Positions 3,151-13,139 of a stretch of DNA of 20,612 bases are shown here, piece by piece. Below the pieces are notes generated by a model. The model was not told the DNA's origin, made no database searches, and worked only from the letters and a program-made list of their open reading frames with translations. A program made the translations under genes and the position numbers. Numbering within the stretch: the first letter of the stretch is position 1; each line of letters opens with the position of its first letter. This DNA comes from a virus: IMG/VR virus record IMGVR_UViG_3300017765_000093, positions 1 through 20,612 of that record, one strand, 5' to 3'.

Positions 3151-3165
3151 AATTTTATATTTATA
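3151..3165 (+). promoter_or_regulatory. Candidate late promoter motif, copy 1
   Basis: AATTTTATATTTATA lies in the 55-nt gap after the repeat-protein gene, with the TATTTATA core ending 23 nt before the next ATG. The same 15-mer occurs at 13106-13120, and with two changes at 9336-9350. The core is the exact reverse complement of the T4 late promoter box TATAAATA, so its working strand is uncertain. AT-rich DNA gives chance hits. Confidence 0.45.
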
Positions 3166-3188
3166 TAGGAATAGCATACAATAAACAG

Positions 3189-4121
3189 ATGGCAAATAAT
3201 AAATTTTACGGATACACACCAGATTCTTCTAAAGAAAAAGAAGGTAATAGATTAGATTCTTTAAATCCATATGAATTTAAAAAGGGTATGGATTATGAAT
3301 TAGTTAAAATAGGATGTGCAAGATTACAAGAATCAACTCTTGAAGAAAGAATGAAAACTACAGAAACAGTTATTCAAAATCTAAATTACCACCCATCATA
3401 CTATTCTGGTCTTATCCATTATGAAACTCAATTTAGAAATTCTAAAACTAAACCTGCTTTTAAAAGTTGGTTAAAAGAATTTCATGAAGAAACTGCTATG
3501 AAACCTGTTTCTGAAAAAGATAGATTAAAAGAAGCTATAAAAAATCAAATAAAAAAAAATTTATTAAAAGAACAATCTGATGATTTTGAAGATTTTGATT
3601 TTGATGATGAATCTACTTCAAAAACCGCTTCTAAAGCTGGGGGTAAAAAAGGAAAAGGAGAAAAAGGATTAGATAAAGAAAGTGAAAAACTTTCTAAAGA
3701 AAAAGATAGTTTAAAAGATAAAATGTTTCCTTTAATGCAAGCATTTAAAGCTAAAAAGAAAGGAAGAAAAAAGTATGGTAAAGAAGAATACGAAGCTGAT
3801 TTAAAAAAGATAAAAACATCAGATAAATCTCCAGTAGCCACTGAAAAAGGAAATGATCATGTTACTGATAGGATTAAAGCTATTAATAAAAGGTTAGAAG
3901 CTATAGAAAAAGAAAAAGAAGACATTATTTTAAGAGAAAGAATGGATAAAAGAGAAGTAGCATCTACTATGATGGATAGACAAATTCATAAAGAATTACT
4001 TAATATAATTAAAGAAGCAGGTATTAATTTAAGAGAAGGAGCAGAATCTATAAAACCTTATTATGAGATAGCTAAAATGTCTTATATGGAAGGATTAACA
4101 GCAGGTATAAGACAATATTAA
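3189..4121 (+). CDS. Charged phage protein of unknown function, possible structural or core protein
   Basis: This 310-residue protein starts at the first ATG after the motif at 3151-3165. The N-terminal 110 residues look folded (FYGYTP, NPYEFKKGMDYEL, HPSYYSGL, FKSWLKEF). An acidic stretch follows (132-141, rich in Asp and Phe), then a Lys/Gly/Ser linker (145-178) and the basic block KKKGRKKYGK (189-198). The C-terminal half (226-310) is charged and helical, likely partly coiled coil. I recall similar N-terminal segments in marine T4-like phages but no proven function. It heads a run of four charged proteins, which would fit prohead-core or internal virion proteins. That is a guess from composition and position. 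Confidence 0.8.
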   Translation: MANNKFYGYTPDSSKEKEGNRLDSLNPYEFKKGMDYELVKIGCARLQESTLEERMKTTETVIQNLNYHPSYYSGLIHYETQFRNSKTKPAFKSWLKEFHEETAMKPVSEKDRLKEAIKNQIKKNLLKEQSDDFEDFDFDDESTSKTASKAGGKKGKGEKGLDKESEKLSKEKDSLKDKMFPLMQAFKAKKKGRKKYGKEEYEADLKKIKTSDKSPVATEKGNDHVTDRIKAINKRLEAIEKEKEDIILRERMDKREVASTMMDRQIHKELLNIIKEAGINLREGAESIKPYYEIAKMSYMEGLTAGIRQY

Positions 4122-5251: not shown

Positions 5252-6802
5252 ATGACTCTTGATGAGTTAGTATTAGAATGGTCTTATAGAACTCAAAGGG
5301 GATATCCTAAGCTGGATAACCCTTCTGACGTTCTGATTTTAAAACAAATCTTAACAGAACTTAATTTACCAACAGATAATCTTTTAAAAAATTTAAAAGA
5401 AATGCCAAGTTATTTATCTAAAGGTGAATTAGAAAAATATAAAGATAATCCATCTAAAGATAGAATTTCTATTTTAATTAAAAAAATAGAAAATGATGAA
5501 GAATTAACATTAAAAGATGGAGGTACTTTTGTTGTTGCTAATAAAGAAGATGCAATTAATGATTTAATGGGAGATATACCTAAATTTGGTGTAGAATTAA
5601 TTGATAAAGATGGTAATAAAATAAAAACTAGTGATATACAAAAAACACCAGAATTTGGGGGCGCAGATAAAGTAAGTACTGATCCAGAAAATCTTAAAGT
5701 TAGAACAGATACAAAAGAAAGTTTAGTTATATTAATGTGTAATATTTTATCAAATGGGAGTAATTTAAAACCATTTAATACAAAATCTTTTATAGATAAT
5801 ATTAATATAATAAAATCATTTTCAAATAAATATAAAGATATAGAAAGTGAAATACAAGGATATATAGAAACATTACTTGATTTAGTAGAAAATTATGAAA
5901 ATCTTTCTACTAAGTCTAAAAGAAAATCAGAAGCTATATTTAATAATCCATATTCTATAGCAGTAGAAATATTAAAAACTTATCCTAAACCTAGATTTAA
6001 TAGAGGAGAAATATTTAATAAAATAAGAACAGAATGTTCAAGAATAACGGTTTTAGAAAAAGATAAATGGAATCCTGGAGATATTTATTTAGTAAATTTT
6101 GAACCAGAATTACCTATAGAAACAGATTCAATTGCTCCTTGGAATGATTTATTTGTAAATAATTGGGGAGATACAGATAAACCTTTAGTTTCAATTACAT
6201 TAAAAGAAGAAAAATATCAACCAGGTAGAGCTAAATCCTATTTAACTAAATTTGGAGATAAAGTTGAATATGATTTAAGTAAAGAAGAGTTAGAATGGGA
6301 TGAAGAAAATTATAAATCTGAAATTACAAGATTAAGAGAAATAGTTTCAAAATTAATAGAAGATGGAGGAACTGGATCTCCTAATGAAGTTATAAAAAGA
6401 GGAGATGGATGGGAAGGTAAGTTTTCAGAAGGTAGAGCAAAATTACAAGGTACATATGGTGCTTATAAATTATTAGAATTTATATTAAAACATCCAGAAG
6501 CTTCTATAGCAGGTTTATTTGCTTATGGTCAATCTATACCTGGAGATCCATCAGCTAATCCTACTTTTTTCAAATTAGTAGGAGGAAATAAAGGAGAATT
6601 AAAAGCAATTGAAAAATACCCTGGAGGTTCTAATACAGATTTAACCAAAGATGAACCTGTAATAATAACTGATACAACAAAATCAGCAAATATTACTATT
6701 TCAGGAAAATTAGATATTATTAAAGACGGAGAAATAGAACGAACTGAAGACGTAAGTAAAACTTTTAGAGGGGATTACGGAAGAGCAGTAGGAATTGTTT
6801 AA
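5252..6802 (+). CDS. Phage protein with possible PD-(D/E)XK nuclease-like core
   Basis: This 516-residue protein starts 4 nt after the acidic protein gene. The N-terminus (1-60) has LDELVLEWSYRTQRGYP, which looks like a separate small module. Charged linkers occupy about 60-150 and a helical region 150-265. At 271-330 there is DKWNPGDIYLVNF, a gap, then WNDLFVNNW and PLVSITLKEEK. A KWNPxDIW...ISLKK pattern of this kind is one I associate with degenerate PD-(D/E)XK nuclease folds. Here D277 and K318 could be active-site residues, but the usual acidic residue before xK is Thr316, so activity is doubtful. The C-terminal part (380-455) has GLFAYGQSIPGD and NPTFFKLVGG. Roles in DNA end processing, host DNA breakdown or virion structure are all open. 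Confidence 0.72.
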   Translation: MTLDELVLEWSYRTQRGYPKLDNPSDVLILKQILTELNLPTDNLLKNLKEMPSYLSKGELEKYKDNPSKDRISILIKKIENDEELTLKDGGTFVVANKEDAINDLMGDIPKFGVELIDKDGNKIKTSDIQKTPEFGGADKVSTDPENLKVRTDTKESLVILMCNILSNGSNLKPFNTKSFIDNINIIKSFSNKYKDIESEIQGYIETLLDLVENYENLSTKSKRKSEAIFNNPYSIAVEILKTYPKPRFNRGEIFNKIRTECSRITVLEKDKWNPGDIYLVNFEPELPIETDSIAPWNDLFVNNWGDTDKPLVSITLKEEKYQPGRAKSYLTKFGDKVEYDLSKEELEWDEENYKSEITRLREIVSKLIEDGGTGSPNEVIKRGDGWEGKFSEGRAKLQGTYGAYKLLEFILKHPEASIAGLFAYGQSIPGDPSANPTFFKLVGGNKGELKAIEKYPGGSNTDLTKDEPVIITDTTKSANITISGKLDIIKDGEIERTEDVSKTFRGDYGRAVGIV

Positions 6803-6814
6803 AAAATTTGGTTA

Positions 6815-6857
6815 CCCTAAAAATTAGTGGTACCCTACAACTGTAGGGGTTTTAGGT
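6815..6857 (+). terminator. Bulged GC-richer hairpin between genes (terminator or RNA control element)
   Basis: The 75-nt gap 6803-6877 holds a two-part stem. The inner stem is CCCTAC (6833-6838) with GTAGGG (6843-6848) around loop AACT. The outer stem is CCTAAAA (6816-6822) with TTTTAGG (6850-6856). A 10-nt bulge lies on the 5' side and a single G on the 3' side. A short TTTT follows the inner stem, so it could be a weak intrinsic terminator, but those bases also form the outer stem. The gap also repeats GGTTACCCT and GGTACCCT. An RNA regulatory element or processing site is as likely. Confidence 0.45.
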
Positions 6858-6877
6858 TGAAATGGCGAACCGGTAAT

Positions 6878-7252
6878 ATGACACAGTACAATCCAAAAAA
6901 CATAGAAGAAACACTGAAGCGAATGGAAAAAGCGGATGAGTTAAAAGGCATACACCGCTCTGGTACTAATATAATGTCGTTCTTTGATGATAATGATCAA
7001 GAACATGAATTACAAAAACAACAATCAGCAGCAGAAGTCAAAAAAGATGAATATCTTAAAAGTGTTGAATTATTAAAAACACTTATTCAAGAAAAAGGAA
7101 CTAAAGACGATTTAAACCGTATAATAGCAATTGGTCTTTTAATTGAAACTACAGACTTTCTTAATATACCTCCAGATCGTAAAAAAATGTTAAAAGAAAA
7201 TATGGAATGGTGTAATAAACAATATGAAAAATACTTGGATCCCCAAAAATAA
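6878..7252 (+). CDS. Small helical phage protein, unknown function
   Basis: The ATG at 6878 gives 124 residues. The longer in-frame start, GTG at 6827, lies inside the hairpin element and adds residues with no recognisable character, so I prefer the ATG. The protein is charged and mainly helical (IEETLKRMEKADELKG, a central Lys/Glu/Gln helix, and DRKKMLKENMEWCNKQYEKYL near the end). No family was recognised. The first 100 bases use more GC-ending codons (GCG, CGC, TCG) than the surrounding genes, which may mark it and the hairpin as an unusual patch. It opens a group of non-structural-looking genes before the sigma factor. Confidence 0.72.
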   Translation: MTQYNPKNIEETLKRMEKADELKGIHRSGTNIMSFFDDNDQEHELQKQQSAAEVKKDEYLKSVELLKTLIQEKGTKDDLNRIIAIGLLIETTDFLNIPPDRKKMLKENMEWCNKQYEKYLDPQK

Positions 7253-7265
7253 TTTACTATAATTA
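7251..7265 (+). promoter_or_regulatory. Very weak copy of the candidate promoter motif
   Basis: AATTTACTATAATTA matches the 15-mer at 3151 in only 11 of 15 positions, in the 34-nt gap before the ATG at 7287. It also holds a TATAAT string. AT-rich chance similarity is a good explanation, so this is listed only because it lies in an intergenic gap. Confidence 0.12.
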
Positions 7266-7286
7266 AATAAATAATAAAAAACAGTT

Positions 7287-7505
7287 ATGAAATACGCAAG
7301 ACAAACACAAGATGCCCTAGATAGATTAGATCAATCTTTAGCAACATTAAGAGGATTAATTAAAAGAGGACAAAATGAAGAAGCTCTTCAATATATGGAG
7401 CAAGGTGATTTAAAAGAAAGATTTGGAGAATTACAAAGTATAATTACTATATCATCTACAAATACCTTAGGAGCAAGTGGGATACAAAATTTAGGAGCTC
7501 TTTAA
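7287..7505 (+). CDS. Small coiled-coil phage protein, unknown function
   Basis: This 72-residue protein is mainly one helix (RQTQDALDRLDQSLATLRGL, then IKRGQNEEALQYMEQ and LKERFGELQSIITIS). The heptad-like spacing of Leu/Ile suggests a short coiled coil. The C-terminal 17 residues are Ser/Thr/Gly-rich and probably flexible. Similar short proteins occur in marine T4-like phages near late genes, as far as I recall, without known function. The next gene starts two bases after the stop (TAATATG), so the two are probably translated together. Confidence 0.75.
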   Translation: MKYARQTQDALDRLDQSLATLRGLIKRGQNEEALQYMEQGDLKERFGELQSIITISSTNTLGASGIQNLGAL

Positions 7506-7506
7506 T

Positions 7507-8289
7507 ATGTTATCAGCAGAAAAAATCCAATCAAATTGGGATCGTTATATAAACACAATAACAACCTGTTTTTCTAAAGAAAGAACAGACATACTATTAC
7601 CATTCCTAGACAAGTATAAAGAAAGAATGATGATGATGCCTGCTTCAAGTAAAAATTGGCACCATTCAGCATTTGCAGGTGGTTATACTGATCATGTTTT
7701 ACGTGTATATGATTGTGCAAATCAATTATATAAAACGTGGAAATCAATGGGTGGTGATATATCCACATATACTGTTGAAGAAATGCATTTCGCCGCTTTA
7801 TTCCATGATTTAGGCAAGATGGGCCAACAAGAAGGCGAATACTACCAACCAAACGATTCACAATGGCATGTTGATAAATTAGGTATGGTTTATAAATTTA
7901 ATACTGACATTCCAGCAATGAAAGTTCCAGAACGTTCATTATTTATTTTACAGGAAATTGGATGTAAAGTTACCCAAAATGAATTTATTACAATTAAAAT
8001 TCATGATGGTTTATATGATGAGTCAAATAAGTTTTACTTTATGTCTGGTCAAAAAGAAACTAGATTAAGAACACATTTACCGTTATTAATGCATCAAGCA
8101 GATCATATGGCTGCTCAAATCGAATTTGAATTATGGAATAACGCATCTAATAGTGTTCCTAAATCAAAACCAGCTAATGCTACTAAAGGTGATAAAACAC
8201 TTAGAGCAGCTAAAAAAGTAAACACAGAAAATAACCCAAAATTAGCATCAGCAACATTAGATGTTATAGATTCGTTTTTTAAAGATTAA
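7507..8289 (+). CDS. HD-domain metal-dependent phosphohydrolase
   Basis: This 260-residue protein belongs to the HD superfamily, whose members hydrolyse phosphate esters or phosphodiesters (nucleotides, nucleic acids, second messengers) using one or two metal ions. Visible motifs are HHSAFAGGYTDHVLRV (52-67, ligand H63), the HD pair in ALFHDLGKMG (H100, D101), IHDG (H166, D167) and MHQADHMAAQIEFE (195-208, H196 and D199). The order resembles YhaM-type exoribonucleases and related HD proteins, but the substrate cannot be read from the sequence. Residues 210-255 are a basic, likely disordered tail. It lies between small helical proteins and the sigma factor gene, so a role in nucleotide or RNA turnover during infection, or against a signalling-based host defence, is possible. 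Both are inference. Confidence 0.85.
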   Translation: MLSAEKIQSNWDRYINTITTCFSKERTDILLPFLDKYKERMMMMPASSKNWHHSAFAGGYTDHVLRVYDCANQLYKTWKSMGGDISTYTVEEMHFAALFHDLGKMGQQEGEYYQPNDSQWHVDKLGMVYKFNTDIPAMKVPERSLFILQEIGCKVTQNEFITIKIHDGLYDESNKFYFMSGQKETRLRTHLPLLMHQADHMAAQIEFELWNNASNSVPKSKPANATKGDKTLRAAKKVNTENNPKLASATLDVIDSFFKD

Positions 8290-8575: not shown

Positions 8576-9334
8576 ATGACAAACAGAATCCCACAAGAAC
8601 CAGTAATCACTGGTTCTCTTGCGCCAGAACCAAAAAGAAGAGGAAGAAAAAGAACTAAAAAAAGGTATTTTACAGAAGATACAGACGCAGCTATAAAAGA
8701 ATACTTAGCATCTTCAAATCAAGATAAAAGAGATTATATATTTAAAACAAGAATACATTACCCTTTTTATAAATTAGCAGAAAATCTTATCCATACATTT
8801 AAATTCTACTATACAGAAGTAGATAATTTAGAAGATTTAAAACATGAAGTAATTTGTTTTCTTTTAGAAAAATTAGATTATTTCAAACCAGAAAAAGGTA
8901 CTAAAGCATTTAGTTATTTTTCTATTGTAGGTAAAAATTATCTTATATTATATAATAATAACAATTATAAAAAGAAAAAACAAAAAGCAGATCCTTTGGC
9001 AGCAGACGAAGATGAAGGAGTTTTACGTCAGTTAGGTAGAGATGAACGTAAACAAGAAATTAAAGATTTTATAGATTATTTTACTGAATATATTGATAAA
9101 AATATGTTTATAATGTTTAAAAAAGATAAAGATAGAAAAGTATGTGATGCTATAAATGTACTTTTTAAACGTAGAGAAAATTTAGAAATATTTAATAAAA
9201 AAGCACTTTATATTTATATTAGAGAAATGACAGATGTAGATACCCCAGTTATTACTAAAGTAACTAAAAAATTAAAAGTTTTATATAAAGAACTTTACTC
9301 TGAATTTATTGAAACGGGGTATGTAAAAGTCTAA
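8576..9334 (+). CDS. 55: gp55-like late-transcription sigma factor
   Basis: This 252-residue protein resembles T4 gp55, the sigma-like factor that redirects host RNA polymerase to late promoters. The key stretch is at 84-126: NLEDLKHEVICFLLEKLDYF, then PEKGTKAFSYFSIVGKNYLI. It matches the sigma region 2 core with its aromatic, promoter-melting segment. The N-terminus has a basic RRGRKRTKKRYF block (21-32) absent from T4 gp55, and a Lys-rich loop follows at 131-136. The C-terminal half is helical (IDYFTEYIDKNMF, VITKVTKKLKVLYKELYSEF) and may contact polymerase or a sliding clamp. T4 gp55 is 185 residues, so this is a longer form. A strong hairpin in the RNA lies 20 nt after the start codon. 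The late genes follow directly. Confidence 0.8.
   Translation: MTNRIPQEPVITGSLAPEPKRRGRKRTKKRYFTEDTDAAIKEYLASSNQDKRDYIFKTRIHYPFYKLAENLIHTFKFYYTEVDNLEDLKHEVICFLLEKLDYFKPEKGTKAFSYFSIVGKNYLILYNNNNYKKKKQKADPLAADEDEGVLRQLGRDERKQEIKDFIDYFTEYIDKNMFIMFKKDKDRKVCDAINVLFKRRENLEIFNKKALYIYIREMTDVDTPVITKVTKKLKVLYKELYSEFIETGYVKV
8596..8617 (+). promoter_or_regulatory. Perfect 9-bp hairpin just inside the sigma factor gene
   Basis: AGAACCAGT (8596-8604) and ACTGGTTCT (8609-8617) form a perfect 9-bp stem with loop AATC. CAAG before and CTTG after (8618-8621) can extend it past a small bulge. It begins 20 nt downstream of the ATG at 8576, where it could slow early translation. No T-run follows, so it is not a terminator. 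Confidence 0.35.
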
Positions 9335-9335
9335 A

Positions 9336-9350
9336 AATTCCATATTTATA
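9336..9350 (+). promoter_or_regulatory. Candidate late promoter motif, copy 2
   Basis: AATTCCATATTTATA sits in the 26-nt gap after the sigma factor gene. It differs from the copies at 3151 and 13106 at two positions (CC for TT). The TATTTATA core ends 10 nt before the ATG at 9361, which would leave almost no 5' leader if it is a -10 element. It precedes the hub and spike genes. Confidence 0.45.
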
Positions 9351-9360
9351 ATAAAATAAT

Positions 9361-9729
9361 ATGGATTCATTAAATCAAATACTTTTTGACGATAAATCCT
9401 TTGGTGATTTACTCAAAGAAATTCATGGCAATCAAAAGAAAAAAGCAAAACAACTTGCATCTTTAATAGCAGAATTACGTCCTTTAGTTCAATCTTCAGG
9501 TGATGCTACTGTAGTAGTTCCTTTAATTAAAGAATATATGGAAATTAGTGTTAAAAATGATGACCAACTTATCAAAATGGCTGCTATTGTACAACGTTTA
9601 TCTACAGGTGCTGCTTCAACAGGAGATGGTGGATTATTAACTAATGAAGAAATGGATCAATTAATGGATGTAGCTGAAGAAATAGCTAAAACAGTTGAAA
9701 ATCCAAAACAAATAGAAGAACCTAAATAA
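9361..9729 (+). CDS. Helical phage protein next to sigma factor, unknown function
   Basis: This 122-residue protein is helical, with a folded-looking core (FGDLLKEIHGNQKKKAKQL, LIAELRPLVQSSGDATVVVP, IKEYMEISVKNDDQLIKMAA) and a Gly/Ser/Thr linker at about 86-93. The end is acidic. No family was recognised. Its place directly after gp55 and before the hub genes would suit a late transcription co-factor such as T4 gp33 (similar size), a tail assembly chaperone, or a minor structural protein. Nothing in the sequence decides between them. The next gene starts one base after the stop (TAAAATG). Confidence 0.75.
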   Translation: MDSLNQILFDDKSFGDLLKEIHGNQKKKAKQLASLIAELRPLVQSSGDATVVVPLIKEYMEISVKNDDQLIKMAAIVQRLSTGAASTGDGGLLTNEEMDQLMDVAEEIAKTVENPKQIEEPK

Positions 9730-13105: not shown

Positions 13106-13120
13106 AATTTTATATTTATA
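13106..13120 (+). promoter_or_regulatory. Candidate late promoter motif, copy 3
   Basis: AATTTTATATTTATA is identical to the copy at 3151-3165. It lies in the 36-nt gap before the ATG at 13140, with the TATTTATA core ending 19 nt upstream. It would drive the wedge gene block that follows. It is the reverse complement form of the T4 late box, so direction is unproven. Confidence 0.45.
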
Positions 13121-13139
13121 ATAAATAATAGATAACAAC

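Follow-up and report, generated by a model that had tools for sequence, protein, structure and literature searches.

A conserved intergenic element with promoter-like features and a palindrome over the predicted start site in phages with a likely Flavobacteriales host

Introduction

Late promoters of phage T4 carry TATAAATA at -10, and the virion RNA polymerase of phage N4 uses hairpin promoters. At the level of translation, T4 RegA and gp32 are examples of control through an autogenous operator. To our knowledge, transcription control in phages of marine Flavobacteriales has been little studied, and no literature on the promoters of the phage group considered here was found among the matches listed.

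For the Bacteroidetes, the primary promoter (sigma-ABfr) is described as a -33 TTTG and a -7 TAnnTTTG (PMC6847099, PMC2483708). In Flavobacterium johnsoniae, the boxes are TTTG (-33) and TAHHTTTG (-7), transcription starts 4-5 nt 3' of the latter, the mean leader is 33 nt and the -33 motif is far less evident than the -7 box (PMC6847099). In this study, a gap between two genes of a virus record carrying gp25-kind and gp6-kind baseplate genes (20.6 kb; the whole stretch is referred to as the window) was compared with these systems, and with the corresponding loci of related viruses.

Results and Discussion

The gap and its neighbouring genes

Long ORFs lie nearly end to end on the + strand across the window, while the ORFs listed for the - strand do not exceed 98 aa. 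Gap 6803-6877 (75 nt), flanked by a 516-aa ORF (5252-6802, +) and a 124-aa ORF, is the widest among the called + strand ORFs (the runner-up has 55 nt) and has a GC content of 38.7% against 28.0% for the window. Both properties had been pointed out in the original prediction, which was also correct about the presence of an outer stem (CCTAAAA, 6816-6822, perfectly paired with TTTTAGG, 6850-6856), an inner stem (CCCTAC, 6833-6838, with GTAGGG, 6843-6848) and a repeat (GGTTACCCT, 6810-6818, and GGTACCCT, 6829-6836). A tRNA search found none, and Rfam 15 returned no family at the gathering score for the whole window; for region 6700-7000 the only Rfam matches (E 1.9 and 7.5) fell short of the gathering score and lay off the hairpin. 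Phage records searched with the DNA of 5252-8289 and with the 124-aa protein gave no match.

Among phage records, those most similar to the gp6-like baseplate protein were from Flavobacterium phages (48.2%), with a Microcystis phage next (45.8%), and one relative (L121) lies in a metagenome-assembled genome (MAG) contig named Flavobacteriales, with the frame kept and TAGG replacing TTGG. For these two reasons, a Flavobacteriales host is likely. The window also encodes a 1037-aa phage ORF (20-3133) in which many CTDxxAxNYxxxANTDDGSC-like repeats were noticed by eye; its C-terminus matches the Por_Secre_tail domain (PF18962, E 1.3e-9, above the cut-off), a sorting signal for type IX secretion in Bacteroidetes.

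Downstream of the gap, the gene order is kept across relatives (Table 1). For the 124-aa protein (AF2 mean pLDDT 69), no PDB match was obtained at E 0.001, and the comparison with Pfam gave only a sub-threshold HTH_71 match at residues 1-24 (E 0.059), which was not used. A TTGG-N19-TATAATT string overlaps the end of this ORF and gap 7253-7286; it may be due to chance, since TTGGAT encodes Leu-Asp. A Sigma70_r2 match was found in 25 of 28 homologues of the sigma-like gene (best E 0.034, below the curated cut-off), and its product, for which the AF2 model is too poor to be informative, had no PDB match by sequence and none by structure at E 0.001. This gene, which we take to be T4 gp55-like, putatively encodes a late sigma factor, a reading that draws also on its place near the baseplate genes; if it is correct, a non-late promoter ahead of the gene makes sense.

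Table 1. Features of the element, the downstream unit and the candidate late motif in the window
Feature	Position	Strand	Details
A-rich tract	6803-6806	+	Adjoins the upstream ORF's stop codon, immediately 5' of TTTGG; alignment columns 1-4
TTGG, -33/-35-like element	6808-6811	+	Constant distance to the core in 104 redundant locus copies
Spacer, 19 nt	6812-6830	+	Fixed length, variable sequence; pairwise identity 0.542
TACCCTAC, -7/-10-like element	6831-6838	+	TAYCCTAY in relatives (alignment of 42 sequences)
Palindrome/hairpin CCCTAC-AACT-GTAGGG	6833-6848	.	Predicted to cover about -10 to +6
Predicted transcription start, G6843 or T6844	6843	+	4-5 nt past the -7 element, as in F. johnsoniae
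Predicted mRNA leader, 34-35 nt	6843-6877	+	First bases GTAGGGGTT conserved, remainder variable in sequence and length
124-aa ORF, first of the unit, predicted helical	6878-7252	+	Conserved ATG and protein
72-aa ORF	7287-7505	+	Homologue 3' of the element in every relative compared
HD-type phosphohydrolase-like gene	7507-8289	+	phrog_28876, E 3.4e-13; Pfam HD below cut-off
Sigma-like gene	8576-9334	+	Weak similarity to sigma-70 region 2
ATATTTATAA (often CCATATTTATAATAAAA)	9342-9351, 13112-13121		Precedes ORFs at 9361 and 13140
ATATTTATAA, near-copy	3157-3166		Before ORF at 3189

Anatomy and conservation of the element

In 42 distinct sequences the region has the form of an element of about 75 nt, which consists of an A-tract, [T/C]TTGG, 19 nt, TAYCCTAY, NACT, GTAGGG[G/T]T, a leader of variable length and ATG. 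The spacing from TTGG to TA is exactly 19 in 104 of 104 redundant copies, TTGG being read as TAGG in one of them (L121), and positions T29, A30 and C32-A35 are invariant in the 42 distinct sequences (the pattern used for picking these asks for the -7 box). Among 30 sequences chosen with a pattern that already asked for this frame, the mean pairwise identity was 0.946 for the core (28 columns), 0.897 for TTGG with the preceding base and 0.542 for the spacer; the values for the 124-aa gene, taken for comparison, were 0.668 at fourfold sites and 0.711 at third positions. Two fixed boxes separated by a stretch that drifts in sequence but not in length are what one expects of a promoter. A noncoding core of 28 nt that changes more slowly than the adjacent coding sequence makes a good starting point, as a testable promoter and a possible operator.

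The exact core was found once per contig, along with two further matches with 3 mismatches. Its distance to the ATG varies between 45 and 64 nt across relatives, and not in steps of three, therefore the leader is not coding; an upstream GTG extension of the 124-aa ORF (6827) was rejected on the same grounds. The A-tract is also present ahead of CTTGG at other promoter-like sites in related contigs.

A search of IMG/VR with the 124-aa protein identified 46 loci, and 11 more were added when it was used as a profile. With the exception of 7 loci cut by the contig start (L034, L040, L043-L047), these 57 could be assessed, and in 46 of the resulting 50 (many of them near-duplicates) the element lies directly before the 124-aa gene, a figure which is not conditioned on the element. 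The extraction patterns for the 30- and 42-sequence sets, on the other hand, already require the upstream box, the 19 nt and much of the core; near-duplicate loci are many, and 42 distinct 70-nt sequences remain. The 4 loci lacking the element are two look-alike pairs. By eye, the gene in L055/L056 seems to start with TTG near a leftover TTTGG, and in L041/L042 the upstream ORF extends nearly into a shortened gene.

Scanning IMG/VR with the core alone (a pattern that requires the core, including GTAGGG) gave 57 stretches with one match each, and in 55 of them the 124-aa gene starts 45-64 nt past the first base of the core. Two loci (L107 and L108) keep the element and lack the 124-aa gene, with the 72-aa gene, the phosphohydrolase and the sigma-like gene following in order, and thus the element serves the unit. 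In both, an ORF of about 40 aa lies between the element and the 72-aa gene. These loci also bear on the idea that the site is a translational operator bound by the 124-aa protein itself, in the manner of T4 RegA or gp32. The position of the 55 of 57 exact core matches just ahead of the gene would fit such control, but the element occurs without the gene (L107, L108) and the gene without the element (L041, L042, L055, L056), and the protein is predicted to be all-helical and lacks a PDB match at E 0.001; we regard an autogenous operator as extremely unlikely.

Another explanation is that the element marks the border of a gene-exchange module and is kept by recombination rather than by function. 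The identity of the upstream protein to that of the window (best segment) is 28-82% where it was found, and the downstream HD and sigma-like genes are 71-97% identical to those of the window, as would be expected at such a border. Recombination alone, however, does not maintain a core at 0.946 with a spacer at 0.542 inside the same element, which leaves this explanation with little probability.

Outside the phage group, a 22-letter core pattern had no exact match in bacterial and archaeal genomes (genome_contigs). Relaxed scans added no members: L122-L125, from a relaxed variant scan, had no tblastn match to any of 12 window proteins and appeared by eye to be chance matches, and the same was true of 34 of the 68 stretches of a relaxed scan (L126-L159), the remaining 34 being element members already present in the core scan. 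L182 and L184 were judged by eye to be chance matches as well, and L052 was rejected because its 17-mer lies in unrelated, GC-rich surroundings that lack the TTGG frame.

Comparison with known promoters

Like the sigma-ABfr promoter, the element has a TTTG-like upstream box ([T/C]TTGG) at 19 nt from TA, a T at -12, an A at -11 and a T at -7, as well as room for a start 4-5 nt further on and a leader near the mean of 33 nt. It differs in the -7 box, which is TAYCCTAY and not TAHHTTTG: of the six near-invariant bases of the host consensus (T-12, A-11, T-8, T-7, T-6, G-5) three are missing, and only T-12, A-11 and T-7 are kept. It differs also in being invariant to about +8, with a palindrome over the predicted start site. 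The setting resembles that of T4 late promoters in that the phage has baseplate genes and a sigma-like gene lies 3' of the element. In contrast to those promoters, the element has an upstream box and is present in a single copy, and TATAAATA is absent from gap 6803-6877, the likely late motif being ATATTTATAA in this case. With the hairpin promoters of the N4 virion RNA polymerase it shares a small conserved palindrome, but here the palindrome spans the predicted start.

Gap 6803-6877 is probably a phage promoter region that reads rightwards and starts the downstream unit. We infer promoter activity, the position of the start and a regulator acting at the palindrome; the promoter reading was adopted because of the fixed spacing over a drifting spacer and because a CTTGG-N19-TAT frame recurs ahead of further genes in related contigs. 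RNA polymerase would recognise TTGG together with the A-tract, and then TACCCTAC 19 bp on, and transcription would start near G6843, yielding a 35-nt leader for a unit with the 124-aa ORF first and extending through the HD phosphohydrolase and the sigma-like gene. The palindrome would span the start site as DNA, with only its right arm transcribed from G6843. Either a phage factor would help, or the promoter would be weak until a regulator acts; such a factor or regulator is proposed because two points argue against an ordinary host promoter, the poor fit of the -7 box to the host consensus and the finding that in F. johnsoniae the -33 motif is far less evident than the -7 box.

Several observations count against a promoter. 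Each E. coli sigma-70 hexamer is matched at just 3 of its 6 positions, below the scan threshold; its invariant stretch reaches about +8, beyond the needs of a plain promoter; pairing in 42 of 42 sequences, including G-U wobbles, suits an RNA hairpin equally well; the exact core is single in each contig, unlike a promoter class; and the element is missing from four loci (two look-alike pairs). A promoter region is ordinary in kind, while the conservation, the non-consensus -7 box and the start-site palindrome are unusual. The earlier suggestion that the structure may separate two transcription units is supported insofar as the downstream one most likely begins at this site.

Structure of the hairpin in relatives

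The inner hairpin stands alone in the window, where no other perfect 6-bp stem combines four or more GC pairs with a loop of 3-8; such hairpins averaged 0.33 in 60 shuffles of the window, and 74 of 2000 shuffles of the gap contained at least one. Its pairing is conserved, contrary to the lack of conservation that the original prediction had named as part of its refutation: the stem is kept in 42/42 distinct element sequences, with 100% of cells paired. Four of the six pairs never vary and no double change was found, therefore the alignment cannot prove an RNA stem. When the outer stem and the hairpin were scored jointly, 339 of 500 column shuffles were at least as high; against slid versions of the same structure the pairing was 80.8% compared with at most 59.4%, which is expected of a structure taken from one of the sequences. 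For the hairpin with a second stem (42 sequences), 500/500 column shuffles were at least as high. Folding of the 101-nt region was no better than that of shuffles (z +0.27 on the + strand, -0.19 on the - strand), and the compensating changes that the original prediction proposed to look for amounted to none in the inner hairpin. Among further stems, the one TTGG..CCAA-type stem tested was paired in 67.6% of cells, and a GGUC..GACC stem 3' of the core looked inconsistent by eye.

The conserved pairing could nevertheless reflect an RNA hairpin, CCUAC-NACU-GUAGG with conserved flanks, that acts on a read-through transcript as a processing, stability or protein-binding site of a polycistronic mRNA. 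The only changes in the arms (U-G to C-G and C-G to U-G) preserve pairing in RNA in each of the 42 sequences, read-through is plausible given the nearly end-to-end + strand ORFs, and a stem of this kind is uncommon in the gap shuffles. However, compensatory double changes are missing and the pair counts, though above those of slid versions, are not above those of column shuffles; the region is no more stable than shuffles, there is no Rfam family, and the TTGG..CCAA-type stem is kept in just over two-thirds of cells. Moreover, such a hairpin offers no role for TTGG at a fixed 19-nt distance over an unconserved spacer. An RNA hairpin of this type is possible but rather doubtful. For the small regulatory RNA that had been suggested, neither an Rfam match nor a compensatory double change in the hairpin was obtained.

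It had also been suggested that a short terminator and a longer structure form two competing states. One stem lies inside the other and both can form at once, hence by themselves they are not alternatives, and for the outer stem only 64.3% of cells keep the pairing (30 relatives), which does not favour the longer form. An intrinsic terminator of the upstream unit would agree with a scan that lists 6833-6848 with GTTTT as terminator-like on the + strand. However, the same scan gives 3 such sites in the first 20 kb, fewer than in shuffles (mean 5.4), and in six distinct relatives with the hairpin intact (L121, L039, L107, L058, L061, L062) no more than 2-3 T are left of the T-run. In addition, terminator-like hairpins of relatives are, by eye, much stronger (e.g. 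GAGAGCAGCC..GGCTGCTCTTTTTTTT), and a terminator need not keep its sequence. We therefore consider termination at this site highly improbable; a hairpin followed by T residues, read from a single genome, can lead to a promoter being taken for a terminator.

The same frame at other sites

The spacing of the promoter-like frame was surveyed in the window and 13 relatives (14 contigs, 95 gaps), the element gaps being left out. For the pattern TTGG-Nk-TA[ACT][ACT][TC]T, with k running from 12 to 27, there were 4 matches at a spacing of 19 and no more than one at each of the other values; the reverse strand of the same gaps gave none with k=19 and never more than 2 for a single k. Three of the four k=19 sites read A-tract-CTTGG-N19-TAT[AC]TTGACGTCATATTAAT; they belong to two contigs, and each lies ahead of a different ORF (184, 205 and 61 aa), with an ATG 19-24 nt past TTGACGTC. 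As the k=19 sites are not many and share homology in part, the spacing peak does not represent independent events, and it is support, not proof, of the promoter reading. The CTTGG-N19-TAT[AC]TTGACGTCA sites resemble the element in the A-tract, the CTTGG, the 19-nt spacer, the TAT, a palindrome in the start region and an ORF shortly 3', and differ from it in a -7 box nearer the host consensus, another palindrome and other genes.

TTGG-N19-TATMTTKR was found in 0 of 8 further contigs. When 30 contigs were searched for TTGG-N19-TATCCTA elsewhere, the matches listed included no additional exact copy, and those with up to 2 mismatches were about as numerous as in a reversed-pattern control. The A-tract-CTTGG-N19-TAT[AC]TTGACGTCATATTAAT sites ahead of the three ORFs (L160, 3676-3746; L169, reverse strand; L183) make up a second promoter-like family, with the palindrome TGACGTCA.

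It is conceivable, though we put this forward tentatively, that a single promoter frame (A-tract, CTTGG, 19 bp, TAT) serves the phage group and is combined with interchangeable palindromes over the transcription bubble (CCTAC-NACT-GTAGG in this case, TGACGTCA elsewhere), each with its own regulator. The copy studied here would then gate the putative late-sigma unit and so set the time of the change to ATATTTATAA late promoters.

A candidate late motif

The 47 distinct contigs that bear the element have 190 gaps, and 51 of these contain the word ATATTTATAA; it is the most enriched word and was chosen after looking, and its sites lie at matching places in related contigs, so that the 51 gaps are not independent. 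It was not found in the identical 190 gaps when these were reversed or reverse-complemented, and it was absent from the Microcystis phage stretch. We regard ATATTTATAA as a candidate late promoter for these phages, and together with the element it outlines a possible scheme of timing. In 33.8 kb of Flavobacterium phage immuto, it occurs twice on the + strand and 0 times on the - strand. The same phage also contains a repeated TTCGTATATTTAGGTA (L053, positions 4639, 4909 and 9851), which is possibly a host-type promoter.
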